A stretch of 64,000 nucleotides of DNA, taken from assembly GCF_030817355.1 (NCBI RefSeq), contig NZ_JAUSZH010000001.1, positions 2,412,501 through 2,476,500 of the forward strand, read 5' to 3'. Below, in pieces: positions 5,475 to 42,573 of the stretch. Position numbers and translations under genes: made by a program. The notes under the pieces were generated by a model that had not been told where the DNA came from, ran no database searches, and saw only the letters and a list, made by a program, of their open reading frames with translations. Position 1 is the stretch's first letter, and each line of letters begins with the position of its first letter. This DNA comes from Streptomyces sp. V1I1 (GTDB lineage: Bacteria > Actinomycetota > Actinomycetes > Streptomycetales > Streptomycetaceae).

Positions 5475-6707
5475 ATGCCGTCGCCGCCACACCAGGAGCA
5501 CAGGGCTCCCAGGGACAAGCGGCGCAAAGGTGATGTCATCGTGACGATCACAACCGACTCCTTCTCGGTCCGGCCCTTCACCCGTAACTGTCACATCATT
5601 TGGGACGAGGGCGACCATGTCCTGATCGAGGTTTCCCCGGGGAACAGCTATTTCTCCGCCCGCCGGATCACGGAACTCACACGCTGGGCGGCCCCGCGTT
5701 CCACCGCGGTGGACATCGTCTACGCCGATCTGCATGTGGCAGCCGTCTTCGCTTCATTGGGCCACGCTCCCGAACAAGCCGCCCGGCGCGCGGCCAAGGA
5801 GCTCAAGGCGGTACGCAGGCGAATTGTCGGCGGAGTGGCGGCGGCCGGGCCGCCGGGCCGCCGGATCGGTGTGCGGGCGCTGTCGGAGTTCTCCGACGAT
5901 CGGGTCTACGCGCTGCTGCACCGGCGGGTCCAGCACTTCCTCGCCACCGACGATGAATTCCGCAAGAGCTGCGACCTCATGGTTCAGCAGTTCCTGGCGC
6001 CCAAACTGGCAGCCGGTGAATCCATCTCCCCCGAGCAGCGGTCCGCCTGTCTCGACTACATAGCCGCCGAACTCCCCTTCTTCCTCGACACTCCGGGGAT
6101 TCTCGGCGTCCCTTCCTCCGTCTCCTGCTATAACGCGCTGATGCCGCTGACGGAACTTCTCTTCTCGAAGGGCGGCGGGCTACGAGTCGCCCGCAATCAG
6201 GCCTATGCCGTCGTACGGCCCGAAGCACCCGAAGCACCCGAAAGGAGCGCGCGGACCATGACCCCCAATCCCGAGCAGCTTGATTTCCCGCTCTCCCGGC
6301 GCGGTGATGTGCTCCCCGCCGAGTGCTCCTGGCTGCGCGAGAAACAGCCGGTGGCCAGGGTGCGTACGCTCACCGGCGACAGCGCCTGGCTGGTGAGCAG
6401 TTACGCGCTGGCCAAGCAAATTCTGGATGACGAGCGGTTCAGCCTCAAGGACACGGCCGCTCCCGGAGTGCCCCGGCAGTACGCGCTGACGATCCCGCCC
6501 GAGGTCGTCAACAACATGGGGAACATCAGCAGCACGGGGCTGCGCGGCGCGGTGATGAAGGCGCTCAGCCCACGGGCCGACGGCCTGCAGGAGTGGCTGC
6601 GCGCCAAGGCCGACGAACTCGTCGACGGCCTGCTGGCCGAGGGACCCCGGTCGACTTCCGGGCGGGGTTCGCAGACCCGTTCTCGGCTGCCCTGCACTGC
6701 AAGGTGA
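5475..6707 (+). CDS. tRNA-dependent cyclodipeptide synthase in frame with a P450 N-terminus
   Basis: CDPSs join amino acids from two aminoacyl-tRNAs into a diketopiperazine. Residues 38-249 align with AlbC as I recall it: HVLIEVSPGNSYFS holds the nucleophile Ser54 (AlbC Ser37) and Asn57; YIAAELPFF gives Tyr195 and Glu199 (AlbC Tyr178, Glu182); VPSSVSCYN gives Tyr219. The His after that Tyr in NYH-type enzymes is Asn220 here. There is no stop after AYAVVRP: the frame runs through EAPEAPERSART into the P450 start (Met262) and ends at 6707 only because of a frameshift near 6641. GGGAG precedes the ATG at 5475; a GTG at 5541 with AAAGGTGAT is an alternative start. Cyclo(Tyr-Tyr) is a possible product by analogy with Rv2275, but specificity is not readable here. 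Confidence 0.88.
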   Translation: MPSPPHQEHRAPRDKRRKGDVIVTITTDSFSVRPFTRNCHIIWDEGDHVLIEVSPGNSYFSARRITELTRWAAPRSTAVDIVYADLHVAAVFASLGHAPEQAARRAAKELKAVRRRIVGGVAAAGPPGRRIGVRALSEFSDDRVYALLHRRVQHFLATDDEFRKSCDLMVQQFLAPKLAAGESISPEQRSACLDYIAAELPFFLDTPGILGVPSSVSCYNALMPLTELLFSKGGGLRVARNQAYAVVRPEAPEAPERSARTMTPNPEQLDFPLSRRGDVLPAECSWLREKQPVARVRTLTGDSAWLVSSYALAKQILDDERFSLKDTAAPGVPRQYALTIPPEVVNNMGNISSTGLRGAVMKALSPRADGLQEWLRAKADELVDGLLAEGPRSTSGRGSQTRSRLPCTAR

Positions 6708-29798: not shown

Positions 29799-32474
29799 TC
29801 AGCGCATCAGCACTCCCGCGCCCTCCCCCGTCGCCTCCGTCGGCAGCGCCACCAGACCCAGGTCCGCGCTGGCCGCAAGCAGCGGGTGAGCCGGCAGGAT
29901 GCGCACCGTGTAGCCGAATGGGCCCGTGCGGTCCAGACAGAGCGGCCCCTCGTAGACCCAGCGGCCCTCCAGGTCCGGGCCGCCCGCCGGCTTCAGCGGG
30001 GAGGTCTGGGCGTCGGCGATCGCGTCGTCGGAGTCGACGCGGCCGGCCACCGCCTGCACCTCCACGTCGTCCGGCTGGAGTTCGCCGAGGGCGACCCGCA
30101 CCCGCAGCGCGAGCGTCGCGCCCAGCTCCGCCGTGCCCTCCGCCGCGGCCTCCTCCAGGGCCTCCACATGGTCGACGGCCACCTGTGGCCAGGCCACCCG
30201 CACCCGTGCCTTCCAGGCCGCGAGTTCCCGTGCCGCGTCCGCGTCCATGGACCGGTGGGCCCGGGCGGCGGGGGCGTACAACCGCTCCACGTACTCCCGC
30301 ACCATGCGGCCCGCGAGCACCTTGGGGCCGAGTGTGGTCAGCGTGCGGCGGACCATCTCGATCCAGCGCTGCGGCAGCCCGCCGGCGCCCCGGTCGTAGA
30401 AGCGGGGCGCCACCCGGTTCTCGATCAGCTCGTACAGCGCGCCCGCCTCCAGATCGTCACGGCGGTCCTCGTCGGTCGCCGAGCCGTCGGCGGTCGGAAT
30501 CGCCCAGCCGAAGTCCGGCTCGAACCACTCGTCCCACCAGCCGTCCAGCACGGACAGATTGAGGCAGCCGTTGAGCGCGGCCTTCATCCCGCTCGTCCCG
30601 CACGCCTCCAGGGGTCGGAGAGGGTTGTTGAGCCAGACGTCGCAGCCGGGATACAGCTTCTGCGCCATCGCCATGCCGTAGTCCGGCAGGAAGACGATCC
30701 GGTGCCGCACCCGCGGATCGTCCGCGAATCGCACCAGCTCCTGCACGAGACGCTTGCCGCCGTCGTCCGCCGGGTGCGCCTTGCCCGCGACGACGATCTG
30801 GATCGGCCTGGTCGGATGCAGCAGCAGTTCCATCAGCCGGTCGCGGTCGCGCAGCATCAGGGTGAGCCGCTTGTACGAGGGGACCCGGCGGGCGAAGCCG
30901 ATGGTGAGCACGTCGGGGTCCAGCACCCCGTCGATCCAGCCCAGTTCCGCGGCGCCCGCGCCGCGCTGCCGCCAGGAGGCCCGCAGCCGGTCCCGTACCT
31001 CCATGACCAGCTGTTCGCGCAGATCGCGGCGGAGCTCCCAGATGTCGTTGTCCGGGATGTCGGCGACGGAGTCCCAGCGTTCGGAGCCGCCGACGGACAG
31101 GGCGTCCTCGGTCCGGCTCGTGCCGATCTGGCGCGCGCCGAGCCGGAACACCTCGGGGGCCACCCAGGTCGGTGCGTGAACACCGTTGGTGACGGAGGTG
31201 ATGGGCACCTCCTCGGCGTCGAAGCCGGGCCACAGTCCGGCGAACATGCCGCGGCTGACGGCACCGTGCAGGGTGGAGACGCCGTTGGCACGCTGGGCGA
31301 GCCGCAGCCCCATCACCGCCATGTTGAACAGGTTGGCCTCGCCGCCCGGATAGGTCTCCATGCCGAGCTGGAGCACCTTCTCGACCGGCACTCCGGGCAG
31401 TTCCCCGCGGTCCCCGAAGTGCCGGGCGACGAGCTCGCGGTCGAAGCGGTCGATCCCGGCGGGGACCGGGGTGTGGGTGGTGAACACGGTCCCGGCGCGC
31501 ACGGCCTCCAGCGCGGAGTCGAAGTCCAGGCCCTGGCCGCCGCTTTCCGGGGGTTCCCCCAGTTCGCGGATGCGTTCAAGGCCGAGGAAGCCGGCGTGTC
31601 CCTCGTTGGTGTGGAACACCTCGGGGGCCAGATGGCCGGTCAGGCGGCAGTACGTCCGCACCGCCCGTACGCCCCCGATCCCCAGCAGCATCTCCTGCAA
31701 CAGCCGGTGTTCGCTGCCGCCGCCGTAGAGCCGGTCGGTGACGTCGCGCTCGCCGGGGCCGTTCTCCTCGACGTCCGAGTCGAGCATCAGCAGTGGTACG
31801 CGGCCGACCTGCGCCACCCAGATGTGGGCGTGCAGCGAGCGCCCGCCGGGGAGCGCGAGAGACACCCGGGCGGGTGTCCCTTCGGGCTCCCGCAGCAGGC
31901 TGACCGGCAGCTCGTTGGGGTCGAGGAGGGGGTAGTGCTCCTGCTGCCAGCCGTCGCGGGACAGCGACTGGCGGAAGTAGCCGTGGCGGTAGAGCAGCCC
32001 GACGCCGATCAGCGGTACGCCGAGGTCGCTGGCGGCCTTGAGGTGGTCGCCGGCGAGGATGCCGAGGCCGCCGGAGTACTGGGGCAGTGCGGCGGTGACG
32101 CCGAACTCGGGCGAGAAGTAGGCGACCGCTGCCGGGAATTCGGGCCCGGTGGGCCCGCTGTTCCCGGCGGAGCCGCTGTGTGCCTGGTACCACCTGCGCC
32201 CGTGCAGGTAGTCGTCCAGGTCATCGGCGACGGCGGCCAGTCTGCGCAGAAAGCGGCGGTCTCCGGCCAGTTCTGCCAGCCGGACGGCGGACGCGGACCC
32301 GAGCAGCCGCACGGGGTCACCTCCTGCCGCCTGCCACCCCTCGGGGTCGACAGCCTGGAAGAGGTCACGGGTCTCGGTGTGCCAGGACCAGCGCAGATTG
32401 CGCGCTAGGTCGCTGAGCGGTCGGAGCGGTTCGGGGAGGACGGGGCGGACGGTGAATCGACGAATGGCCTTCAC
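29799..32474 (-). CDS. glgP: Alpha-glucan (glycogen) phosphorylase
   Basis: Releases glucose-1-phosphate from glycogen. The protein has 891 residues and belongs to the long actinobacterial type with an extra N-terminal domain (KAIRRFTVRPVLPEPLRPLSDLARNLRWSW). The PLP lysine lies in EACGTSGMKAALNGCLNLS; substrate-site stretches VFHTNEGHAGFLGLERIREL and VTNGVHAPTWV are present. I chose the GTG at 32474 because AAAGGTGGG lies ahead; an ATG at 32504 would add ten residues. In S. coelicolor, as I recall, glgP lies next to and divergent from glgE; here about 8 kb of other genes separates them. Confidence 0.94.
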   Translation of the reverse strand: MKAIRRFTVRPVLPEPLRPLSDLARNLRWSWHTETRDLFQAVDPEGWQAAGGDPVRLLGSASAVRLAELAGDRRFLRRLAAVADDLDDYLHGRRWYQAHSGSAGNSGPTGPEFPAAVAYFSPEFGVTAALPQYSGGLGILAGDHLKAASDLGVPLIGVGLLYRHGYFRQSLSRDGWQQEHYPLLDPNELPVSLLREPEGTPARVSLALPGGRSLHAHIWVAQVGRVPLLMLDSDVEENGPGERDVTDRLYGGGSEHRLLQEMLLGIGGVRAVRTYCRLTGHLAPEVFHTNEGHAGFLGLERIRELGEPPESGGQGLDFDSALEAVRAGTVFTTHTPVPAGIDRFDRELVARHFGDRGELPGVPVEKVLQLGMETYPGGEANLFNMAVMGLRLAQRANGVSTLHGAVSRGMFAGLWPGFDAEEVPITSVTNGVHAPTWVAPEVFRLGARQIGTSRTEDALSVGGSERWDSVADIPDNDIWELRRDLREQLVMEVRDRLRASWRQRGAGAAELGWIDGVLDPDVLTIGFARRVPSYKRLTLMLRDRDRLMELLLHPTRPIQIVVAGKAHPADDGGKRLVQELVRFADDPRVRHRIVFLPDYGMAMAQKLYPGCDVWLNNPLRPLEACGTSGMKAALNGCLNLSVLDGWWDEWFEPDFGWAIPTADGSATDEDRRDDLEAGALYELIENRVAPRFYDRGAGGLPQRWIEMVRRTLTTLGPKVLAGRMVREYVERLYAPAARAHRSMDADAARELAAWKARVRVAWPQVAVDHVEALEEAAAEGTAELGATLALRVRVALGELQPDDVEVQAVAGRVDSDDAIADAQTSPLKPAGGPDLEGRWVYEGPLCLDRTGPFGYTVRILPAHPLLAASADLGLVALPTEATGEGAGVLMR

Positions 32475-32614
32475 GGGTCCCACCTTTGCAGGGGAGGTAC
32501 ACATCCGAGGGGACGCACGACGGTGTGCGCCTCTCCGTCACCCACAGACGGTAGTGCCGGCCATGCCCCCGCAACCACGGCGCACGGCCGTCCGGCGGAT
32601 TCCCGCCGGGGCAT

Positions 32615-33901
32615 TCAGCGTGGCGCGCGCACCGTCGGACCGTAGGGAGAGCCCTGGTTGACGCTCTGCGGGTCGAACGCCCCGGTGGCCGCGTACCGGG
32701 CGGCAATCTCGTCCAGTTCCGCCTGCGGGATCACCTCGTGGATGTCGGTGAAGCCGCCGGGGGCCCGCTCGTGGGCGAGGTTGATGACGACCTCGGGGCC
32801 CAGCTGCCGATTGGCCCGCTGAAGCTCTGTCATGGCGGGCCTGCGCCAGGCCTCGTACGCGGCGAGTGCGTCGGCCGGGTCGGCGTGCAGGGCCATGGCG
32901 TGCGCGAGGGCGCGGGCGTCGACGATGGACTGGGTCGCGCCGTTGGAGCCGATCGGGTACATGGCGTGGGCGGCGTCGCCGATCAGCGTCGTACGGCCGA
33001 GGGACCAGCGCGGCAGCGGCTCACGGTCCACCATCGGGTACTCGAAGGCACTCTCGGCGGCCTGGAGCACTTCGGGGACGCTGACGCCGTCGAAAACCCA
33101 GCCCTCGTAGTGGTGCAGGAATTTGGCGACCGGCACCGGCCGGTTCCAGTCTCCGCGCGTAGCGTCGTCGACGGATTCGGCGGGCATTGCGAGCGCCCAG
33201 TTGACCAGCACCTCGCCGGTGTCCGTGGCGGGCTCGCTCAGCGGGTAGACGACGGCCTTTTGGCGGTCGTCGCCCGCGATGAACATGAAGGTGCCGATCC
33301 GGTGGGCGGGCAGCGAGGACACTCCGCGCCACACGAGCATGCCGTTCCACGGCGGCTCGCCCTCGCCCGGGTTGAGGGCCGCGCGGACCGTCGAGCGGAT
33401 GCCGTCGGCGCCGATGAGGACGTCCGGTTCGAGGGACGCCTTGCCGCGGCGGGCGCCGTCGCGGTGCTCCAGCTGGACGCGGGGGCGGCCGTCGGGGAGC
33501 GGTTCGACGCCGGTGACCTTGACGCCGCCCACCAGCGCGCTGGGGCCGAGCCGGGTGCGTACCACTTCGGCCAGCGCGAGCTGGAGTTCGCCGCGCTGGA
33601 TGGAGAGCTGCGGCCAGTGGTATCCGGCGCCGAGGCCGCGCGGCTCGCAGGAGATCAGGCCGCCGCTGCGGTGGTAGTAGCGCAGCTCGCGGGTGCGTAC
33701 GGCGCGTTCTTCGAGGCGGTCGAGGAGCCCGAGCGCGTCGAGTTCGCGTACCGCGTTGGGCATGATGTTCAGCCCGGCGCCGACCGGCTGGATCTCGCAG
33801 GCCGTCTCGACGACGGTGATGCGCTCGAATCCGGCGGTGTGCAGTGCGAGTGCGGCGGTGAGCCCGGCTATTCCACCGCCGGCGATCATGATGTGGGTCA
33901 T
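32615..33901 (-). CDS. PhzS-like FAD-dependent monooxygenase
   Basis: Class A flavin monooxygenase of 428 residues. FAD-binding IMIAGGGIAGLTAALALH at the N-terminus; VLIGADGIRSTVRAALNP (DG motif); GDAAHAMYPIGSNGATQSIVDAR for the second flavin site. The run YPMVDREPLPRW, then GRTTLIGDAAH, is very like PhzS, which hydroxylates 5-methylphenazine-1-carboxylate, and like related aromatic-acid hydroxylases. No phenazine core genes are here, so another aromatic substrate is likely. It uses NAD(P)H directly. The ATG at 33901 lies 23 bases after the stop of the PrnB-like gene, and it is the last gene of a run of four on this strand. Confidence 0.9.
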   Translation of the reverse strand: MTHIMIAGGGIAGLTAALALHTAGFERITVVETACEIQPVGAGLNIMPNAVRELDALGLLDRLEERAVRTRELRYYHRSGGLISCEPRGLGAGYHWPQLSIQRGELQLALAEVVRTRLGPSALVGGVKVTGVEPLPDGRPRVQLEHRDGARRGKASLEPDVLIGADGIRSTVRAALNPGEGEPPWNGMLVWRGVSSLPAHRIGTFMFIAGDDRQKAVVYPLSEPATDTGEVLVNWALAMPAESVDDATRGDWNRPVPVAKFLHHYEGWVFDGVSVPEVLQAAESAFEYPMVDREPLPRWSLGRTTLIGDAAHAMYPIGSNGATQSIVDARALAHAMALHADPADALAAYEAWRRPAMTELQRANRQLGPEVVINLAHERAPGGFTDIHEVIPQAELDEIAARYAATGAFDPQSVNQGSPYGPTVRAPR

Positions 33902-33924
33902 GGGTGTCGGACCTCCTGGGACAG

Positions 33925-35070
33925 TCAGGCAGCGGGGGTGCGCGGCCGCTCGACGGAGCGGCGTACGAGGGTCTCGTTGTCCCGGGTCAGGTCGAGCACC
34001 GAGCGCAGCAGCGCGATCGGGGCGCCGCCGCTGCCCACGTCGTACAGCCGTACCTCGTCGCTGTACGCCTTGCGGGCGATGGTCATGTGGCGGGCGCGGA
34101 AGGTCTTGAGGATGCGCAGCACGCGGGCGAGGGAGAGTGCGGACGCGGCGAGCTGCGGGGGCAGCCGGTCGGTCGCCTCCCAGCTGACGGCGGCGGACAG
34201 CTTGTAGACCGCGGAGGTGCCGCCCTTGTGCTTGGCGTAGTGGTCGCGCCAGGACGGGAGGCTGTACTGCACCGAATCGTCGAGGAAGGCGTCGTAGGCG
34301 GGATTGCTGCGGTCGCACTGCCACAGCGTCAGATCGACCAGCCAGAGGGGCACCTGGGCGGCGGCCGGGCCGAGGTAGTCGACGCCCGCGATGTCGATCT
34401 CCTCGAAGTAAGAGCGCATCTCCCGCGCGAAGAAGACCGGGGAGACATTGGCGACGGTGAAGTCGATGGAGTCGACCATGGACTGCACATGCTGGGCGGT
34501 GCGGTCGAGAGCGAGGGCGAAGCCCGGGTCGTACGGTTCGAGGCGGGCGAGCTCCGCGCAGGTGTCGAGCGAGGCGACCAGGCTGGGGAAGACCATCCGG
34601 ACGGCGTCCTGGAGATTGCTCTCCATCCGGTCGCCGGTGTACATCCGCCGCCGGCCGCCGAGGGGGTTCCACGTCGTGTAGTGGTGCACGGTGTCGCGCG
34701 GCACCATGTCGGTGCGCCGGCCCAGCTCTTCGAGCACCGGCAGGACTTCGGGCACTGCGGCGACGGGCTCGACGCCGTGCCGTTTGAGCGAGCCGAGGAG
34801 GATCCCGATGTCTCGCATGGCGGCGAGCGCGTCGGTGATGGCGAGGGCGGCGACCCGGTCCGGGTCGGGCACCAGGGTGCGCAGGGCGACAGTGAGCGCG
34901 GGCGCATCGGCGTCGGCGTTCATACCGGGCAGCGCGGCGAGCAGGGCATCGGCGCCGAGCGGGTCGGCCGCGCGTATCTCGGCTATCCGGTAGCGCGGTT
35001 CGCCGTGCAGATCGAGACCGGGCGCGACAAGGTCGTACAAGGTCAACGGAATGCCCCCCTCGGGCAACAT
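33925..35070 (-). CDS. PrnB-family heme enzyme (tryptophan-dioxygenase superfamily)
   Basis: Protein of 381 residues similar to monodechloroaminopyrrolnitrin synthase PrnB, which rearranges 7-chlorotryptophan in pyrrolnitrin formation. Shared stretches with PrnB as I recall it: AAMRDIGILLGSLKRHG at 84-99, RDTVHHYTTWNP, FEEIDIAGVDYLGPAA, and FRARHMTIARKAY with His328, the likely proximal heme ligand (PrnB His313), followed by DVGSGG. The superfamily covers TDO and IDO, so tryptophan or an indole is the expected substrate. The ATG at 35070 lacks a ribosome binding site; TTG at 35046, preceded by GAGGGGGG, may be the real start. No halogenase or Rieske enzyme is nearby, so this is not a prn cluster. 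Confidence 0.85.
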   Translation of the reverse strand: MLPEGGIPLTLYDLVAPGLDLHGEPRYRIAEIRAADPLGADALLAALPGMNADADAPALTVALRTLVPDPDRVAALAITDALAAMRDIGILLGSLKRHGVEPVAAVPEVLPVLEELGRRTDMVPRDTVHHYTTWNPLGGRRRMYTGDRMESNLQDAVRMVFPSLVASLDTCAELARLEPYDPGFALALDRTAQHVQSMVDSIDFTVANVSPVFFAREMRSYFEEIDIAGVDYLGPAAAQVPLWLVDLTLWQCDRSNPAYDAFLDDSVQYSLPSWRDHYAKHKGGTSAVYKLSAAVSWEATDRLPPQLAASALSLARVLRILKTFRARHMTIARKAYSDEVRLYDVGSGGAPIALLRSVLDLTRDNETLVRRSVERPRTPAA

Positions 35071-35169
35071 CGGTTGATTGGCTGGGATGCGGGCCTGGTC
35101 GCGTCACACGGTCACCGGACGCTTTCGCCGCATGCGTATGCGTACATCGCACGCTCTCGCCGCACACGG

Positions 35170-36585
35170 TCACTCCACGGTGCCGCCCACAGGGTCCTGG
35201 CGCCGTGGCGCCATGGCGGGCACGGGCAGCCGTAGCCGTACGGAAAGCAGGGCGGCCAGGGCCGCGAAGGCGGCCCCGGCCAGCAGCGCGGAGCGGAAAC
35301 CGGAGGTCTGGGCGGCGGCCGACGATCCGCCTGAGGCGGTGGCGACAGCCACCAGGACGGCGAGTCCCAGCACCGAGCCGAACTGCTGGCTGGTGTTGAT
35401 GAGTCCGGAGGCGAGCCCGGTCTCCTTGGGCGCGGCCTCGGCGGTGGCGGCCACATTGGTGGTGACCATGACGAGCGGCAGGGCGACGCCGAGGACAAGG
35501 CTGGGCGCGAGGACGGTGCCGGCGAAGGTGCCGTCGGCGGTGAGCGCGAGCGCCAGCCACACCATGCCGGCGAAGAGCAGCGCGAAGCCGAGCGTCATGG
35601 TGGATCTGAGCCCGAACCGGAAGATGAGGCGGCCGGTCTGCGGCGCGACGGCGACGACGACGAGTGACAGCGGCAGCAGTCCGAGGCCGCCGGTCAGCGG
35701 GGACTGTCCGAGCACGCTCTGCAGATAGAGGCTGACCAGGAAGAACATCGGGAAGAGCGCCATCTGGGCGAGCGCGCTGAGGATGTTGGCGTCGCGCAGC
35801 GCGGGCCGCCGCAGCACGGCGGGCGGCACGAGCGGGTGGGCGATCCTCGATTCCAGTACGGCGAAAGCGGCCAGCAGCACGAGGCCGGCGCCGCCCGCTA
35901 CGAGGGTGCGGGCACTGGTCCAGCCCGACTCGCCCGCGCCTACGAGTGCGTAGGCGACGAGCCCGAGGCCGCCGGTGGCCGTGAGCGCGCCACCGAGGTC
36001 GAAGCCGGGCTGTGTGCTGCGCGTCCCCCCGTCGAGAAGGCGCAGTGCGAGCAGCCCGAGCGCCAGCCCGACGAGCACATTGAGCCAGAACGTGGAACGC
36101 CAGCCGAGCAGATCGGTGAGTACGCCGCCGAGGACGGTGCCCAGCACGCCGCCGAGTCCGCCCATCGCGGCGAACGCGCCGAGGGCCTTGTGCCGCCCTG
36201 GCCCGTCCGGGAAGAGGCCCAGGAGCAGCGCGAAGGCGGCCGCCGCGGCGAGGGCTGCCCCCACGCCCTGCGCGGCCCGCGCGGCGATCAGCGTGCCCGC
36301 CGTCCCGGCGAGGCCGCCGGCCGCGGAGGCGGCGGCGAGCAGGCCGAGTCCGGTGAGGTAGAGCCGCCGGTGGCCGAGGAGATCGGCCGTGCGGCCGCCG
36401 AGCAGCAACAGCCCGCCGAAGGTGATCAGATAGGCGTTGGCGACCCAGGAGAGCCCGGCCGAGCCGGAGCCGAGGTCCTCGCCGACCGACGGCAGCGCGA
36501 CGTTGATGATCGCGGTGTCCATGATCAGCAGCAGCTGGGTGGAGGCGAGCAGCGCGAGCGCGGCGCCCGGGCGGGCCGAGGTCAC
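35170..36585 (-). CDS. MFS multidrug-type exporter (DHA2, 14 helices)
   Basis: Membrane protein of 471 residues with about 14 hydrophobic segments, of the EmrB/QacA type. First helix ends MDTAIINVALPSVGEDLG (motif D1), motif A is GGRTADLLGHRRLYL, and motif C-like GGLGGVLGTVLGGVLTDLLGWRSTFWLN follows. The GTG at 36585 overlaps the HpaB stop by GTGA, so the two are coupled. In a cluster of oxygenases an exporter of this type usually gives self-resistance or secretes the product. Longer versions of the frame run into HpaB and are not real. Confidence 0.93.
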   Translation of the reverse strand: MTSARPGAALALLASTQLLLIMDTAIINVALPSVGEDLGSGSAGLSWVANAYLITFGGLLLLGGRTADLLGHRRLYLTGLGLLAAASAAGGLAGTAGTLIAARAAQGVGAALAAAAAFALLLGLFPDGPGRHKALGAFAAMGGLGGVLGTVLGGVLTDLLGWRSTFWLNVLVGLALGLLALRLLDGGTRSTQPGFDLGGALTATGGLGLVAYALVGAGESGWTSARTLVAGGAGLVLLAAFAVLESRIAHPLVPPAVLRRPALRDANILSALAQMALFPMFFLVSLYLQSVLGQSPLTGGLGLLPLSLVVVAVAPQTGRLIFRFGLRSTMTLGFALLFAGMVWLALALTADGTFAGTVLAPSLVLGVALPLVMVTTNVAATAEAAPKETGLASGLINTSQQFGSVLGLAVLVAVATASGGSSAAAQTSGFRSALLAGAAFAALAALLSVRLRLPVPAMAPRRQDPVGGTVE

Positions 36586-38030
36586 TTGTCGGTCCCCAGG
36601 TCCTGTCCGGTCCCCAGGCCGTAGCCGTCGAGACACTCCTGGGCCAGCTGCTCGCAGCTCTCGGCGCCGCCCGCCCACGTCTGCATCGTCAGATAGACGT
36701 GCGGGGCGCCGTGGTAGAAGCGCTCGTACTGCTCATGGCGTCCGGCGAACTCCGAACCGAGCGCGTCCCAGACCAGTTTGAGCAGCTTGATCCGGTCCTC
36801 GGCCGGGGTTCCGGGCGCGCGCAGATACTTCCTCACGACGGGCCCGAGCTCGGGGTGGCGCAGATCCCCGCCGGACGCGGGCAGCTGGATGACCCCGCCG
36901 CCCGCCAGCAGCTTGATCTCCTGGACCGCGCGCGGGTAGAGCTCGCCGGCCATGATGCGCTGGGCGAAGGAGATCTCCTGGCCGGGCATGACGCCGCCGC
37001 GGCCGCCGTCGACCTGTTCGCAGTCGGCCTCGGCGGCCAGCACGAAGGCCTTGGCCTGGGCGACCATGCCGAGCAGCCGACCGACCGCCTGGGTGACGGA
37101 CGGCAGTTGGTACGTCTTGTTGGTGCGGGTCAGCAGGATGGCGAGACCGGTGAGGAATTCGAGCTTGGTCCAGAAACGGGTGGCCGCCTGGTGCCCGAAG
37201 TTGAGGTAGGCAGGGGTCTGCCACCACATCGCGGCCGTCGCCTCGACGTTGCGGTAGGTCAGCACCCGCTCCCACGGTACGAAGACGTCGTCGCACACCA
37301 GCAGCGCGTCGTTCTCGTCGAAGCGGGAGGAGAGCGGGTTGTCGAAGACGCTGCGGGCCTGTGCCTCGTACGACGTACGCGAGACGAACTTCAGGCCGGG
37401 AGTGTCGACGGGCACCGAGAAGCACAGCGCGTGCTCCACGTCCTCCAGGGCCAGCGGCTCGATCGTGCCGACGATCACCTCGTCGGCGAAGACCGCGCCG
37501 GTGCCGATCATCTTGGCGCCGCGCACCACGATGCCGCCGTCCTTCTCCGCGACGACCCGCACCACGAGGTCGTCGTCCCCCTCGCCGGACTGCGGGTTGC
37601 TGATGGTGAAGGCCGAGTACAGGCCACCCTCGGCGAGCCTGCGGTGGTACGCGAGAGCATTCTCGGCGCCGTCGAAGGAGTCGGTGGTGAACAGCTGGGG
37701 CACGGCGGCGAAGCCCGCGGCGCCGCCCGCCATGTAGTCGGGCGTACGGCCCAGGAAGCCGAAGCTCGACTCGGCCCACACTTTGTACGCCCTGCGCCGC
37801 GCGACCAGGTCTTCGTAACTGCGGGGCACGACGAAGGCGCGGTGTACCCCGCCGGAGGTGAGCACATCGCGGTGCTCGGAGTCGTGTGCCAGGTCGTAGA
37901 GGTGCGCGATCGACGCCGCGGTGTTGCGGAAGGCGTGGTGCCGGGTGACGTCCTTGACCCGTTCGCCGTCGAGCCACACCTCGCGCCCGTCACACAGCGA
38001 TTCGAGGTATTCCTGGCCGGACCTGGTCAA
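36582..38030 (-). CDS. HpaB-type FADH2-dependent monooxygenase
   Basis: Large component of a two-component flavin hydroxylase, 482 residues, 4-hydroxyphenylacetate 3-hydroxylase family with an acyl-CoA-dehydrogenase-like fold. N-terminal domain GQEYLESLCDGREVWLDGERVKDVTRHHAFRN; middle strand region GAKMIGTGAVFADEVIVG; C-terminal helices with RTNKTYQLPSVTQAVGRLLGMVAQAKAFVLAAE. The start is TTG at 38030 with GAGGAGAG 6 bases ahead. It is the first gene of the four-gene run, coupled to the MFS gene. A flavin reductase (HpaC type) is needed but none is in the cluster. Likely substrate a phenol or hydroxyindole, by family only. Confidence 0.92.
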   Translation of the reverse strand: MTRSGQEYLESLCDGREVWLDGERVKDVTRHHAFRNTAASIAHLYDLAHDSEHRDVLTSGGVHRAFVVPRSYEDLVARRRAYKVWAESSFGFLGRTPDYMAGGAAGFAAVPQLFTTDSFDGAENALAYHRRLAEGGLYSAFTISNPQSGEGDDDLVVRVVAEKDGGIVVRGAKMIGTGAVFADEVIVGTIEPLALEDVEHALCFSVPVDTPGLKFVSRTSYEAQARSVFDNPLSSRFDENDALLVCDDVFVPWERVLTYRNVEATAAMWWQTPAYLNFGHQAATRFWTKLEFLTGLAILLTRTNKTYQLPSVTQAVGRLLGMVAQAKAFVLAAEADCEQVDGGRGGVMPGQEISFAQRIMAGELYPRAVQEIKLLAGGGVIQLPASGGDLRHPELGPVVRKYLRAPGTPAEDRIKLLKLVWDALGSEFAGRHEQYERFYHGAPHVYLTMQTWAGGAESCEQLAQECLDGYGLGTGQDLGTDK

Positions 38031-38127
38031 CGTCTCTCCTCAAACGGCGCAAGCGGAATGGCTCTCGACTCGGTCGAGCCTGGCTCCCGCCAAGGACGCA
38101 GGGCAATGAACGACCGTCCAGCGGTGA

Positions 38128-39096
38128 TTAAGAACCGGCCAGTCGTGCAGCTGAGGGGCTTCCCGATCGGTACTCGCCCGGCGTCATCCCGTACCACTTG
38201 CGGAAGGCGAGGTGGAAGCCGACGGCGCTCTGGTAGCCGACGCGCTCCGGCACGGCCGACTGGGGCAGCGAGGTCTCGCCGAGCAGCCGGGCGGCCTCCT
38301 GCATCCGACGCCCGGTCAGATGCCGGGCGGGCGCCTCGCCGACGAGCTCCCGGAAGGCGGCGGTGAACGCGGAGCGGGACATGCCGACCTCTCGGGCGAG
38401 TGACTCGATGGTCCAGGGCTCCGCGAACCGGGTCGCGATGATCACCATCGCCTTGCTGATGCCGGGATGGCGCAGCACGGGCAGCGCGGAGGGGTTGTCG
38501 GCGAGTTCGCGCAGCAGCGGGCGCAGTGCGAGCACCAGCGCCATCTCGAAGGCGCGCAGTGTGACCAGCCGGTCGCCGGGGCCCACCGGGCGGTCGGTGG
38601 CGGCGAGCAGCCGCAGCGTGTCGCGCAGCAGCGGCTCCTTGTCCACCTGGGAGCCGTCGAGCACCAGCGCCCAGGGCAGCGCCTGGTAGAGGCCGGTGGC
38701 GGCGGACGCGTCGTAGTGCAGCCCGGCGCAGAGCAGCCGGCTCTCCGGCCCCTCCCCCTCGATCCTGATCTCGCCGGAAGTGCCGGGCTCCCGCTCGGGG
38801 AGTACGGCGCCGAGCGCGACGCCCCGCCGGTCGGGCCGGTCGGAGAGCCGGTGGGCCGTGCCGGTCGGGAAGACGGCGAGGTCGCCTGCGTGAAGTTCGA
38901 GCGGGTTCTGGTCCTCGCCGGTGATCCAGCAGCCGCCCTCGGTGATGAAGTGGAGGACGGCGCAGCTCTGTTCAGCGTCGCCCTCGATGGCCCAGGGAGC
39001 GCTGACGTGCCATCGGCTGTCGAAGACCCCGGTCAGACGCAGGGGTTTCAGCAGCTCGCTGAGGAGGTCGTCGCTTTCGCTGTCCGTCGCTTCCAT
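38128..39096 (-). CDS. AraC-family transcriptional regulator (cupin plus HTH)
   Basis: Regulator of 322 residues. N-terminal AraC_binding_2/cupin half (VFDSRWHVSAPWAIEGDAEQSCAVLHFITEGGCWI, LELHAGDLAVFPTGTAHRL) that would sense a small molecule, and C-terminal double HTH (WTIESLAREVGMSRSAFTAAFRELVGEAPARHLTGRRMQEAARLL, VGYQSAVGFHLAFRKWYGMTPGEYR). The ATG at 39096 has AAGGA 7 bases ahead. It lies upstream of hpaB on the same strand and divergent from the NmrA gene, so the 120-base spacer 39097-39216 is the likely control point for the block. Confidence 0.92.
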   Translation of the reverse strand: MEATDSESDDLLSELLKPLRLTGVFDSRWHVSAPWAIEGDAEQSCAVLHFITEGGCWITGEDQNPLELHAGDLAVFPTGTAHRLSDRPDRRGVALGAVLPEREPGTSGEIRIEGEGPESRLLCAGLHYDASAATGLYQALPWALVLDGSQVDKEPLLRDTLRLLAATDRPVGPGDRLVTLRAFEMALVLALRPLLRELADNPSALPVLRHPGISKAMVIIATRFAEPWTIESLAREVGMSRSAFTAAFRELVGEAPARHLTGRRMQEAARLLGETSLPQSAVPERVGYQSAVGFHLAFRKWYGMTPGEYRSGSPSAARLAGS

Positions 39097-39216
39097 TGGA
39101 CGATCCTTCAACCTCCGCCCCGGTTTGTTAATTGATCGGCCGAACTCACCGACGCGAGCCTGGAAGAGCCGTTCACGGCAGGCAGCCACACCCTATCGAA
39201 GGGGCCCTTAAGACAC

Positions 39217-40146
39217 ATGTCCGATCACATTCCCATGCGCGTAGCGGTCGTGGGGGCGACCGGCTTCCAGGGCGGTGCGACGGCCCGCCTGCTGGCCGAA
39301 CGGAAACACCGGGTCCGCACGCTGAGCCGCAAGCCCGCGGCGGACCGCCCGGAGCTCCCCGGTGTCTCTGTCGCCGGCGGCGACCTCGGGCGGTACGAGG
39401 ACGTACGCCAGCTCTTCGAAGGGGCCACACACGCGGCGGTGATGCTGCCGCTGGTGTACCAGGCGGAGAAGGTGATGCGGTACGCCCAGTACATCGCGAA
39501 GGCGGCGCGCGAGTCCGGGGTACGCCGGCTGGTCTACAACGCGAACACCCGCATCCCGGACCGGACCACGAATGTCGCGGCCTTCGAGACCCGGCGGCTC
39601 GCCGAGACGGTGTTCCGCGAGAGCCTCGCGCAGAGCGGCGTGGAGGTGGTGGTCGTACGCCCGCCGGTCTATCTGGACAACCTCTTCAGCCCGTGGAACG
39701 GACCGGCCCTGGTGAACGAGGGCGTGCTCGCCTACCCGCTGCCGGCTGACACGCCGACCGCGTGGATCTCCCACCGGGACCTGGCCGAGGCGGTCTACGC
39801 GGCGCTCACGGTGGACGGCGTGGCGGGCCGCACCTTCGACATCGGCGGCGCACAGACGCTGACGGGCCATGAACTGGCGACGGCGTTCGGCCAGGGCCTC
39901 GGGCGCGAGATCCGCTACGTACCGCTGGAGCCACTCGTCTTCGAGCAGGGTCTCACGCAGATCCTGGGCGCGGAGCCGGCGGCCGGGATTGCGGGGATCT
40001 ACCACTACATGGCGACGGGCCTGGAGCCGCGTCTGATGGCGGGCGACACGGGTGCGTCGGCGGGAGCGCTGTCGGTGAAGCCGGCGCCGGTGGACGAGTG
40101 GGTGGCGCGCCAGCCGTGGCAGATGTGGTCGGGGGAGCAGTCATGA
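39217..40146 (+). CDS. NmrA-like NAD(P)-binding oxidoreductase or sensor
   Basis: Atypical short-chain dehydrogenase of 309 residues. Rossmann motif RVAVVGATGFQGGATARLLAERKHRVRTLSR; the body follows NmrA/isoflavone-reductase proteins (ARESGVRRLVYNANTRIP, VVVVRPPVYLDNLFSPW, WISHRDLAEAVYAALT, RTFDIGGAQTLTGHELATAFG). Lacks the YxxxK catalytic pair in the usual place, as many NmrA proteins do, so it may reduce a quinone-like compound or only sense NADPH. The ATG at 39217 has no clear ribosome binding site; an ATG at 39235 (MRVAVVG) is possible. It is divergent from araC, and its stop overlaps a 21-codon ORF by ATGA. Confidence 0.88.
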   Translation: MSDHIPMRVAVVGATGFQGGATARLLAERKHRVRTLSRKPAADRPELPGVSVAGGDLGRYEDVRQLFEGATHAAVMLPLVYQAEKVMRYAQYIAKAARESGVRRLVYNANTRIPDRTTNVAAFETRRLAETVFRESLAQSGVEVVVVRPPVYLDNLFSPWNGPALVNEGVLAYPLPADTPTAWISHRDLAEAVYAALTVDGVAGRTFDIGGAQTLTGHELATAFGQGLGREIRYVPLEPLVFEQGLTQILGAEPAAGIAGIYHYMATGLEPRLMAGDTGASAGALSVKPAPVDEWVARQPWQMWSGEQS

Positions 40147-40208
40147 GGGCGACGAGGAGGCCCGAGCCGAGCTGGGGCACGGAGCCCAGCTGGGGCACGG
40201 TGTTCTGA
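40143..40208 (+). CDS. Possible 21-residue peptide with two EPSWGT repeats
   Basis: A short ORF starts inside the NmrA stop (ATGA) and reads MRATRRP, then EPSWGT twice sharing the ring of Pro, then VF and a stop at 40206-40208. The two 18-base units differ at a single base, ccG versus ccC, a synonymous proline change. AGGAGG at 40156-40161 is inside the ORF, so translation would rely on coupling. It may be a real micropeptide, even a modified-peptide precursor, or only one of the stop-adjacent tandem repeats seen elsewhere in the window. Nothing proves expression. Confidence 0.35.
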   Translation: MRATRRPEPSWGTEPSWGTVF

Positions 40209-40452: not shown

Positions 40453-42573
40453 ATGCCCGCAGCACGCCAGTCGTCGACCGAGCAGCTACAAAGAAGCACC
40501 CGTATCCCTAAAACGGCACATCCCGCCCAATCCACCCTGCTCGCACAGCCCTCAGGTGATCTCATGATCGGTCGCATCCCCGTCCTGGACGTCCGCCCCC
40601 AAGTCGACTGCGGAAGAAGGCCCGCAAAAGCCGTGACCGGTGAGACCTTCCAGGTCACCGCCACCGTGTTCCGCGAGGGCCATGACGCGGTGGCCGCCAA
40701 CGTCGTCCTGCGCGACCCGAGCGGACGCCCCGGACCCTGGAGCCCCATGCGCGAACTCGCGCCCGGCACCGACCGGTGGGGCGCCGATGTCACGCCCGAC
40801 TCCGAAGGGCGCTGGACGTACGCCGTCGAGGCCTGGAGCGACCCGGTCGCCACCTGGCGGCACGACGCACAGATCAAGATCCCCGCAGGCATCGACACCG
40901 CGCTGGTGCTCGCCGAGGGCGCCGCGCTGTACGAGCGCGCCGCCGCCGGGGTGCCCAAGCGCGACGGCCGGGAGGCCGTGCTCGCCGCCGTCGACGCGCT
41001 GCGTGACGAGGCGCGGCCCGCCGCCGCCCGGCTCGCCGCGGCCCTCGCCCCCGACGCCCGCGCCGCGCTCACCCGCAACCCGTTGCGCGAACTGGTCACC
41101 GCCTCCCGCCCGTTGACGCTCATCGTCGAGCGCCGGCGCGCACTCTTCGGCTCCTGGTACGAGCTGTTCCCGCGCTCCGAGGGCGCCGTCGTCACCGAGG
41201 GCGAGCCGCCCGTGTCCGGCACCTTCCGCACCGCCGCCGAGCGGCTGCCCGCGGTCGCCGCGATGGGATTCGACGTCGTCTATCTGCCGCCCGTCCACCC
41301 CATCGGCACCACCCACCGCAAGGGCGCCAACAACACCCTCTCCCCCGGCGCCCACGATGTCGGCGTCCCCTGGGCCATCGGCTCCGCAGACGGCGGCCAC
41401 GACGCGCTCCACCCCGACCTCGGCACGTTCGACGACTTCGACCACTTCGTCGAGACCGCGCGCGGCCTGCGCATGGAGGTCGCCCTGGACTTCGCGCTCC
41501 AGTGCTCGCCCGACCACCCCTGGGTGGAGAAGCACCCCGAGTGGTTCCACCACCGCGCCGACGGCTCCATCGCCTACGCCGAGAACCCGCCCAAGAAGTA
41601 CCAGGACATCTACCCGGTCGCCTTCGACCAGGACTTGCGCGGGCTGGTCAACGAGACCGTGCGCATCCTGCGCTTCTGGATGGACCACGGCGTACGGATC
41701 TTCCGCGTCGACAACCCGCACACCAAGCCCGTCGTCTTCTGGGAGAAGGTGATCACGGACATCAACCGCTCGGACCCGGACGTGGTCTTCCTGGCCGAGG
41801 CGTTCACCCGCCCGGCGATGATGCACACCCTCGCCGCCATCGGCTTCCAGCAGTCGTACACGTACTTCACCTGGCGCAACACCAAGCAGGAGCTGACCGA
41901 GTACCTCACCGAGCTCTCCGGCGACGCCGCCTCGTACATGCGCCCCAACTTCTTTGTGAACACCCCGGACATCCTGCACGCCTACCTCCAGCACGGCGGC
42001 CGCCCGGCGTTCGAGGTGCGGGCGGTGCTCGCCGCGACGCTGTCGCCTTCCTGGGGTGTGTACGCCGGCTACGAACTGTGCGAAAACGCCCCCCTGCGAG
42101 CCGGAAGCGAGGAGTATCTGGACTCCGAAAAATACCAACTACGGCCGCGCGACTGGGAGTCGGCGGAGCGGGAGGGTCGCACCATCACACCCCTGATCAC
42201 CGCCCTCAACCGGATCCGGCGCCGTCACCCCGCGCTGCAGCAGCTGCGCGACATCCACTTCCACCACACCGACAACGACGCGGTGATCGCCTACTCGAAA
42301 TCCGCCGAGGGCCCTTCGGGACCGAACACCGGCGACACCGTCATTGTGATCGCCAACCTCGACCCCCACCACACCCAGGAGGCCACGGTCTCGTTGGACA
42401 TGCCGCACCTCGGCCTCGACTGGCACGAGAGCGCACCGGTGCGCGACGAGCTCACCGGCGAGACCTATCACTGGGGCAGGGCCAACTATGTGCGCCTCGA
42501 GCCGGGCATCACGCCCGCGCACATCGTCGTTCTGCGACCGTCCCCGCCGATCGGAGGGTCACCCACATCATGA
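40453..42573 (+). CDS. glgE: Maltose-1-phosphate maltosyltransferase
   Basis: GH13_3 enzyme of 706 residues that adds maltosyl units from alpha-maltose-1-phosphate to linear alpha-1,4-glucan. N-terminal domain ([39 protein letters not shown]) then a helical insert and the barrel. Key motifs: [39 protein letters not shown] with the nucleophile Asp, [10 protein letters not shown] with the acid Glu. The ATG has AGGAG 5 bases ahead. First gene of glgE-treS-mak-glgB; the stop overlaps treS by ATGA. Confidence 0.95.

Follow-up and report, generated by a model that had tools for sequence, protein, structure and literature searches.

The window analyzed here, a 64,000-nucleotide stretch of Streptomyces sp. 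V1I1 (contig positions 2412501-2476500; genome, 8.3 Mb), holds a six-gene block between glgP and glgE. This cassette, which appears to be a compact, AraC-controlled set for specialized metabolism, probably turns tryptophan into an oxidized aromatic product and exports it, a reading that builds on family assignments and on analogy with known enzymes. Tryptophan is the likely source because relatives of the block add second-copy tryptophan biosynthesis (trp) genes, a tryptophan 6/7-halogenase, or trp together with scytonemin-type genes.

A compact gene set between glgP and glgE

The block is one real unit, with araC, hpaB, mfs, prnB, and fmo on the minus strand and nmrA on the plus strand, between glgP (minus) and glgE (plus). 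An earlier sequence-only reading had described four same-strand genes, an AraC regulator, and a divergent NmrA protein. All six genes are present; the layout needs one correction, as araC shares the strand of hpaB and stands immediately upstream of it, giving five collinear genes and a divergent nmrA. The family names given in that reading held (Pfam PrnB, 122.8 bits; HpaB_N, 276 bits; MFS_1; Cupin_6 with an AraC helix-turn-helix; NmrA; and a PhzS-type flavin monooxygenase, FMO), and refined coordinates confirmed the coupling of hpaB to mfs, the end of the former overlapping the start of the latter in GTGA. The flanking open reading frames (ORFs) are named glgP and glgE after that reading. The features are as follows (aa, amino acids):

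29799..32504, minus strand: flanking glgP, ORF of 901 aa; orthologues adjoin the block in relatives
32615..33901, minus strand: fmo, PhzS-type flavin monooxygenase, 428 aa (Pfam FAD_binding_3; NCBIfam PRK07538; PDB 2rgj)
33925..35046, minus strand: prnB-like heme enzyme gene, 373 aa from a TTG start (381 aa from the ATG at 35070)
35170..36588, minus strand: mfs, exporter of the DHA2/EmrB-like family, 472 aa (Pfam MFS_1, 148 bits; TIGR00711, 197 bits, below its cut-off of 230)
36582..38030, minus strand: hpaB-like FADH2-dependent monooxygenase gene, 482 aa, with Phe141 in place of His (Pfam HpaB_N and HpaB; PDB 4oo2; residue columns)
38128..39096, minus strand: araC, regulator with Pfam Cupin_6 and AraC helix-turn-helix domains, 322 aa, at the start conserved in relatives
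39116..39139, plus strand: conserved 24-base element CGCCCCGGTTTGTTAATTGATCGG in the araC-nmrA spacer (39097-39216), from an alignment of 49 loci
39217..40146, plus strand: nmrA, NmrA-family NAD(P)-binding protein, 309 aa (Pfam NmrA, 93.7 bits; PDB 5f5l, 5.4e-19)
40453..42573, plus strand: flanking glgE, ORF of 706 aa; orthologues adjoin the block in relatives

A good ribosome site precedes the TTG start of prnB; translation could alternatively begin at the ATG at 35070. Gaps of 97 base pairs (bp) separate araC from hpaB, 123 bp mfs from prnB, and 23 bp prnB from fmo. Given this layout, the araC promoter, which faces that of nmrA, could drive all five minus-strand genes. The fmo stop and the glgP start lie 110 bp apart on the same strand (32505-32614), and thus transcription of the cassette could read through into glgP.

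A PrnB-family heme enzyme followed by a flavin monooxygenase

The PrnB-like protein lies well above the cut-off of Pfam PrnB (PF08933, IDO/TDO-like fold; 122.8 bits against 27). Its nearest solved chain is PrnB 2v7i (5.6e-60), it is 32 to 35% identical to the solved PrnBs, and its predicted fold is the same. By homology and fold prediction, then, it is a PrnB-family heme enzyme.

Relatives were collected by a contig scan with nine PrnB-like proteins, which gave 102, and the best 80 of the 102 were kept as the named set (L063-L142). Counts out of 80 refer to this set, in which many loci end at contig ends, and counts out of 99, 90, 76, or 108 loci contain some genomes twice (for example, L046 and L063, or L033 and L120). 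Gene presence per locus was mapped by tblastn and counted at 80% length and 40% identity; genes in relatives were anchored by homology or family tests, or are marked as assigned by eye.

Pocket residues were placed by hand on the alignment to solved PrnB. The pocket tyrosine is kept in 99 of 99 loci, and the histidine, which we take to be the axial heme ligand, and the carboxylate-contact serine are both present in the window protein and each kept in 97 of 99. The tyrosine and serine are common to compact and trp-linked forms of the cluster. The role of the serine follows PMC11791213, where purified PrnB was inactive despite its solved structures and the authors propose a missing component.

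The gene next to prnB offers a concrete candidate for that component, because fmo stands directly after prnB, on the same strand, in 70 of the 80 named loci, from actinobacteria and proteobacteria. The FMO protein belongs to NCBIfam PRK07538 (504.5 bits, cut-off 400), a subfamily model titled "hypothetical protein." Its nearest solved chains are 2rgj (labeled flavin-containing monooxygenase, 8.2e-84) and 3c96, both presumably the pyocyanin enzyme PhzS; unlike the pyocyanin system, the window block shows no phenazine genes. A weak Trp_halogenase match (25.6 bits, residues 27-85) covers the FAD motif only. In three loci (L047, L048, and L049), the prnB-fmo pair occurs without the remaining block genes. 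From this gene order, PrnB and the directly following FMO are the core of the cluster family.

A wider proposal, which we put forward tentatively, is that PrnB-type enzymes outside pyrrolnitrin mostly act as a two-enzyme module with a PhzS-type FMO. The FMO would take, or help complete, an otherwise unproductive PrnB reaction to give a hydroxylated, rearranged tryptophan skeleton. Such a module would be the shared root of a natural-product family in actinobacteria and proteobacteria, with the compact glg-locus cassette as its minimal complete form.

All of the nearest named PrnB relatives of the window are from Streptomyces, and 51 of the 80 named loci adjoin glgP and/or glgE. Partner genes were counted as follows: FMO in 71, AraC in 65, NmrA in 63, HpaB in 60, and MFS in 57. 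All six families occur together in 51 loci, a set not identical to the 51 glg-adjoining ones. The beta-proteobacterium Crenobacter oryzisoli (L132) has all six side by side in a different gene order.

Other PrnB-like genes were also seen. A class-wide PF08933 search matched 8 of 345 genomes, 2 of them already in the genus set. Four loci (L052-L055) carry distant PrnB-like proteins (29 to 33% identity), and behind each of them a conserved protein is encoded; a single one of these was tested and gave a weak match to the GHMP kinase N-domain. In L076, L078, and L084, PrnB-like genes (52 to 56% identity) stand without FMO and are preceded by a methyltransferase-like gene (family test on L076 only).

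Tryptophan-linked contexts of relatives

Long actinobacterial clusters were found in S. parvulus, Kitasatospora aureofaciens, S. harbinensis, S. coelicoflavus, Plantactinospora, Actinokineospora, and others. Their additional genes encode a ketosynthase, a second FMO, and TrpC, TrpD, TrpG, and TrpE-like proteins, in most of them also a DsbA-like protein and often a berberine-type oxidase; a DAHP synthase gene was seen within the sampled stretch in four of six named long clusters, besides Plantactinospora. In the G098 copy (L045), TrpC and TrpD score above their cut-offs and TrpG above that of a subfamily model; the best matches of the TrpE-like protein are to anthranilate synthase models, below their cut-offs. 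The DAHP synthase of S. parvulus scores above the family cut-off. The cluster trpC is a second copy in both S. parvulus (G200, L063) and G098; the genome of the window has a single trpC, outside the block.

Two further contexts agree with this. In Glycomyces terrestris, prnB-fmo is preceded by a gene for a relative of tryptophan 6/7-halogenases (850 bits to 6ul2), and a flavin reductase gene follows fmo. In Aquabacterium (L139, 1380-19623), prnB and fmo overlap by 4 bp. This locus encodes, above cut-off, a ScyE-family protein, an EboA-domain protein, EboE, and DHQ synthase; ScyC-like and EboC-like proteins score below cut-off, and a DsbA-like protein is also present in the cluster. TrpE, TrpG, TrpD, and TrpC each exceed at least one cut-off, and the cluster trpC is again a second copy. 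As a whole, the Aquabacterium cluster resembles a scytonemin-type operon holding PrnB and a PhzS-type FMO. The second-copy trp genes, the tryptophan 6/7-halogenase, and the scytonemin-type neighbors all agree with the tryptophan-derived product that the sequence-only reading had suggested as one possibility.

That reading had also raised detoxification, in which an AraC-switched set would oxidize and expel a foreign aromatic compound or harmful indole. The drug-exporter-type MFS pump, the cupin-AraC regulator, and the NmrA protein would fit such a stress set; the second-copy trp, DAHP synthase, tryptophan halogenase, and scytonemin-type genes of relatives, however, would supply substrate for biosynthesis, and some glg copies (L118 and L124) lack the pump. 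We therefore hold detoxification to be the less likely function, and a rather improbable one.

The long clusters have a further feature of their own. Their stand-alone ketosynthases (L045, 7563-9044; L046, 7589-9013; and relatives) have no carrier protein seen beside them. Among 19 ketosynthase loci, of which L046 and L063 are one genome, 11 match a pattern with glutamine for the catalytic cysteine, 2 have cysteine, 1 differs, and 5 were not caught by the pattern.

A distinct HpaB subclass

Like the HpaB/SgcC two-component monooxygenases, the cluster HpaB has HpaB_N and HpaB domains, its nearest solved chain being 4oo2 (labeled chlorophenol-4-monooxygenase, 6e-85), which we take to be SgcC. 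It also has an arginine near position 141 that is kept in 76 of 76 cluster loci, the next residue being tyrosine in 65 of 76. Unlike those enzymes, it carries phenylalanine at position 141 in all 76 loci (60 of 60 in the named set), where the five solved chains shown have histidine, presumably the residue that contacts the substrate phenol. The histidine beside the phenol expected of a 4-hydroxyphenylacetate 3-monooxygenase is thus replaced by Phe141. Furthermore, the protein scores below the cut-offs of both models for that enzyme (TIGR02309, 293.1 against 480.2; TIGR02310, 304 against 885.2), and no flavin reductase gene adjoins it. Seven other Streptomyces HpaB relatives have, by eye, histidine (three) or tyrosine (four) in this column. 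Judged by its phenylalanine, the cluster HpaB forms a subclass of its own.

A change of substrate may have taken place in the glg-type cassette. It could use the same enzymes on another aromatic amino acid or amine, such as hydroxytryptophan or a kynurenine- or tyrosine-derived compound, supplied from elsewhere in the genome. The phenylalanine of the HpaB subclass, as against the histidine of the five solved chains, would be in keeping with this, as would the compact form, in which the additional trp genes of the long clusters are missing; moreover, the wider PrnB heme-enzyme superfamily includes tyrosine hydroxylases (discussion of PMC11791213). However, the pocket tyrosine and serine of PrnB are kept across compact and trp-linked forms, and the partner genes are the same in both. 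On balance, we consider such a different substrate unlikely, and tryptophan remains the source that we favor.

Distribution and evolution of the block

Among 246 genus genomes, 29 have a PrnB match of any kind, and 16 an orthologous one (at least 55% identity), one of these with a split frame. HpaB was matched at E ≤ 1e-100 in 23 genomes, 16 at 68% identity or more and 7 at 42 to 45%; the 7 have no PrnB match at all. Orthologous PrnB and orthologous HpaB occur in exactly the same 16 genomes. Thus, the gene set does not come together by chance.

We searched the 246 genomes for GlgE and GlgP and found both genes in 85 among the matches listed, of which 81 could be paired. Left out were G017 and G032, with the genes on different contigs, and G101 and G172, with two GlgE copies of which the one listed is far from glgP. 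Where two GlgE copies were listed, the one near glgP was taken, so that neighbor status in all 81 is partly by choice. The glgP-glgE gap measures 7.9 to 9.8 kb and contains the block in 7 paired genomes; in the other 74, it measures 0.3 to 3.4 kb. Because glgP and glgE lie within 3.4 kb in these 74, the block is accessory, as the sequence-only reading had proposed, rather than a fixture of all Streptomyces. One of the short-gap genomes, G218 (L051, 8063-9831), has a gap of 2.5 kb with an FMO gene (81% identity) and a fragment of PrnB from its C-terminal end, by homology a decayed copy of the block.

Recent horizontal insertion found no support. The G+C content of the block (0.69-0.75) is inside the range of its surroundings, and in three of four pairs the synonymous divergence (dS) of block genes is close to that of the flanking glgP and glgE. 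The trees of PrnB, HpaB, and FMO each unite the chosen glg-type rows in a single clade (support 0.986, 1.0, and 1.0). These trees fit a single origin of the block at the glg site followed by losses, and as part of the explanation that we favor, the cassette would have been inherited together with its flanks. In the L036 pair, the dS of prnB (0.30) and fmo (0.42) is half to two thirds of that in the flanks (0.60-0.62), and the ratio of nonsynonymous to synonymous divergence (dN/dS) of prnB is 0.46; the lower dS could reflect exchange.

The dN/dS of block genes ranges from 0.09 to 0.46 in four pairs, against 0.11 to 0.23 for the glgP and glgE flanks, which indicates purifying selection on the block genes. 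Such values argue against reading the cassette as what decay has left, with little remaining function, of a longer tryptophan pathway, as do the promoter element kept nearly unchanged in 49 loci and the co-occurrence of the six families, with no extra genes, in Crenobacter and S. iconiensis. The G218 gap and the several named loci that lack some block genes are what such decay would produce; even so, we regard it as very improbable for the cassette.

A conserved element in the araC-nmrA spacer

In the araC-nmrA spacer of 49 glg-type loci, a 24-base stretch is nearly unchanged, its two commonest variants accounting for 36 of the 49. Allowing up to three mismatches, a 20-base segment of this stretch has a single match in the genome. 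The 9-base core TTAATTGAT has 26 occurrences in the 1.58 Mb of the 80 loci and is found in 23 of 52 glg-type loci, the others having TTAATTGAA; it also lies in the araC-divergent spacer of four long clusters (L045, L066, L067, and L068). Non-glg loci scored low when scanned with the 24-base element, the 9-base core alone being shared, by 4 of the 22 loci scanned. From its position and conservation, the element may be an AraC site or part of a promoter.

Elsewhere in the window, positions 5475-6707 (plus strand) encode a cyclodipeptide synthase (Pfam CDPS, 268.7 bits, residues 30-249). The C-terminal part of this ORF resembles, by eye, the start of a P450, possibly a frame-broken pair of the two enzymes.

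Comparison with known systems

The block shares with the pyrrolnitrin cluster (prnABCD; PMC11791213) a PrnB-family heme enzyme and tryptophan as the likely source. Unlike that cluster, it has a PhzS-type FMO, HpaB, NmrA, AraC, and MFS instead of PrnA, PrnC, and PrnD. Identity with the pyrrolnitrin cluster was rejected, since Pfam and NCBIfam find no PrnA/PrnC halogenase or Rieske PrnD among the six block proteins, an absence already pointed out in the sequence-only reading. The scytonemin/ebo clusters of cyanobacteria are approached by the Aquabacterium relative, with its prnB-fmo pair among scy/ebo-type and trp genes. Scytonemin is tryptophan derived, and the ebo genes of Nostoc serve precursor transport in its synthesis (PMC6282210); the window block, in contrast, has no scy or ebo gene and has an MFS pump as its putative exporter.

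Two other clusters were compared from their published descriptions. The mansouramycin cluster of S. albidoflavus likewise makes a tryptophan-derived Streptomyces product and was missed by antiSMASH (PMC12690601); the likeness noted here concerns the product, and the words "PrnB," "heme," and "monooxygenase" were not found in the main text of that paper. The paenidepsin cluster contains a PrnB homologue, pdnC, together with an AraC regulator, but is a lipopeptide nonribosomal peptide synthetase cluster of Paenibacillus, and its authors (2026) call the role of the homologue speculative (PMC13036774).

In the Creative Commons-licensed literature, with MIBiG outside that search, we found no description of the gene set and no product assigned to it, in line with the earlier impression that the cluster matches none described. 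The PrnB, PhzS, and HpaB families are known; within the literature searched, we found no account of the three together, of the occurrence of such a set in two phyla, or of its links to trp, halogenase, and scy/ebo genes.

Proposed pathway

We propose that the PrnB-family enzyme would first act on tryptophan and, by analogy, yield a compound resembling 3-(2-aminophenyl)pyrrole or another product of oxidative rearrangement. Hydroxylation of this product by the PhzS-type FMO, possibly with loss of CO2, would come next, and the Phe141 HpaB would add a second hydroxylation. The NmrA protein may act as the reductase of an intermediate of quinone or ketone type, the MFS pump would export the final product, and the AraC protein would switch the set through one shared divergent promoter region. 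PrnB is placed first because of the tryptophan-supplying and tryptophan-halogenating contexts in relatives, the FMO second because of its constant position after prnB, and HpaB third because the smallest gene sets do without it. We infer the product, what the enzymes use as substrate in this strain, the sequence of reactions, the part played by NmrA, and export, the last from the family of the pump.

Several observations weigh against this pathway. The window block itself contains no trp, halogenase, or flavin reductase gene, the last of these although HpaB requires reduced flavin. At least two of TrpC, TrpD, and TrpE occur in only 9 of the 80 named loci at our length and identity limits; thus, the link to trp holds for a minority, and most relatives show none. 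The tyrosine beside the HpaB arginine is replaced by cysteine in 11 of 76 loci. In 6 of 80 named loci, prnB stands without any of the other five genes, and the scan itself, having found relatives with two PrnB motifs, favors the PrnB family. Among glg copies, L118 and L124 lack mfs, L119 and L142 lack a full hpaB and mfs, and L116 lacks fmo; others are broken, with fmo in two pieces in L040, a split prnB in L044, and the remnant in G218. The comparisons taken together nevertheless support the overall interpretation of the sequence-only reading.

The cluster family hints at hidden tryptophan-derived metabolites in many Streptomyces and other genera, with one branch tied to scytonemin-type genes. 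At about 7.5 kb, the six-gene unit is small enough to be cloned whole. Moreover, PrnB is an unsolved heme enzyme, and the FMO offers a partner that could be added in a PrnB assay.

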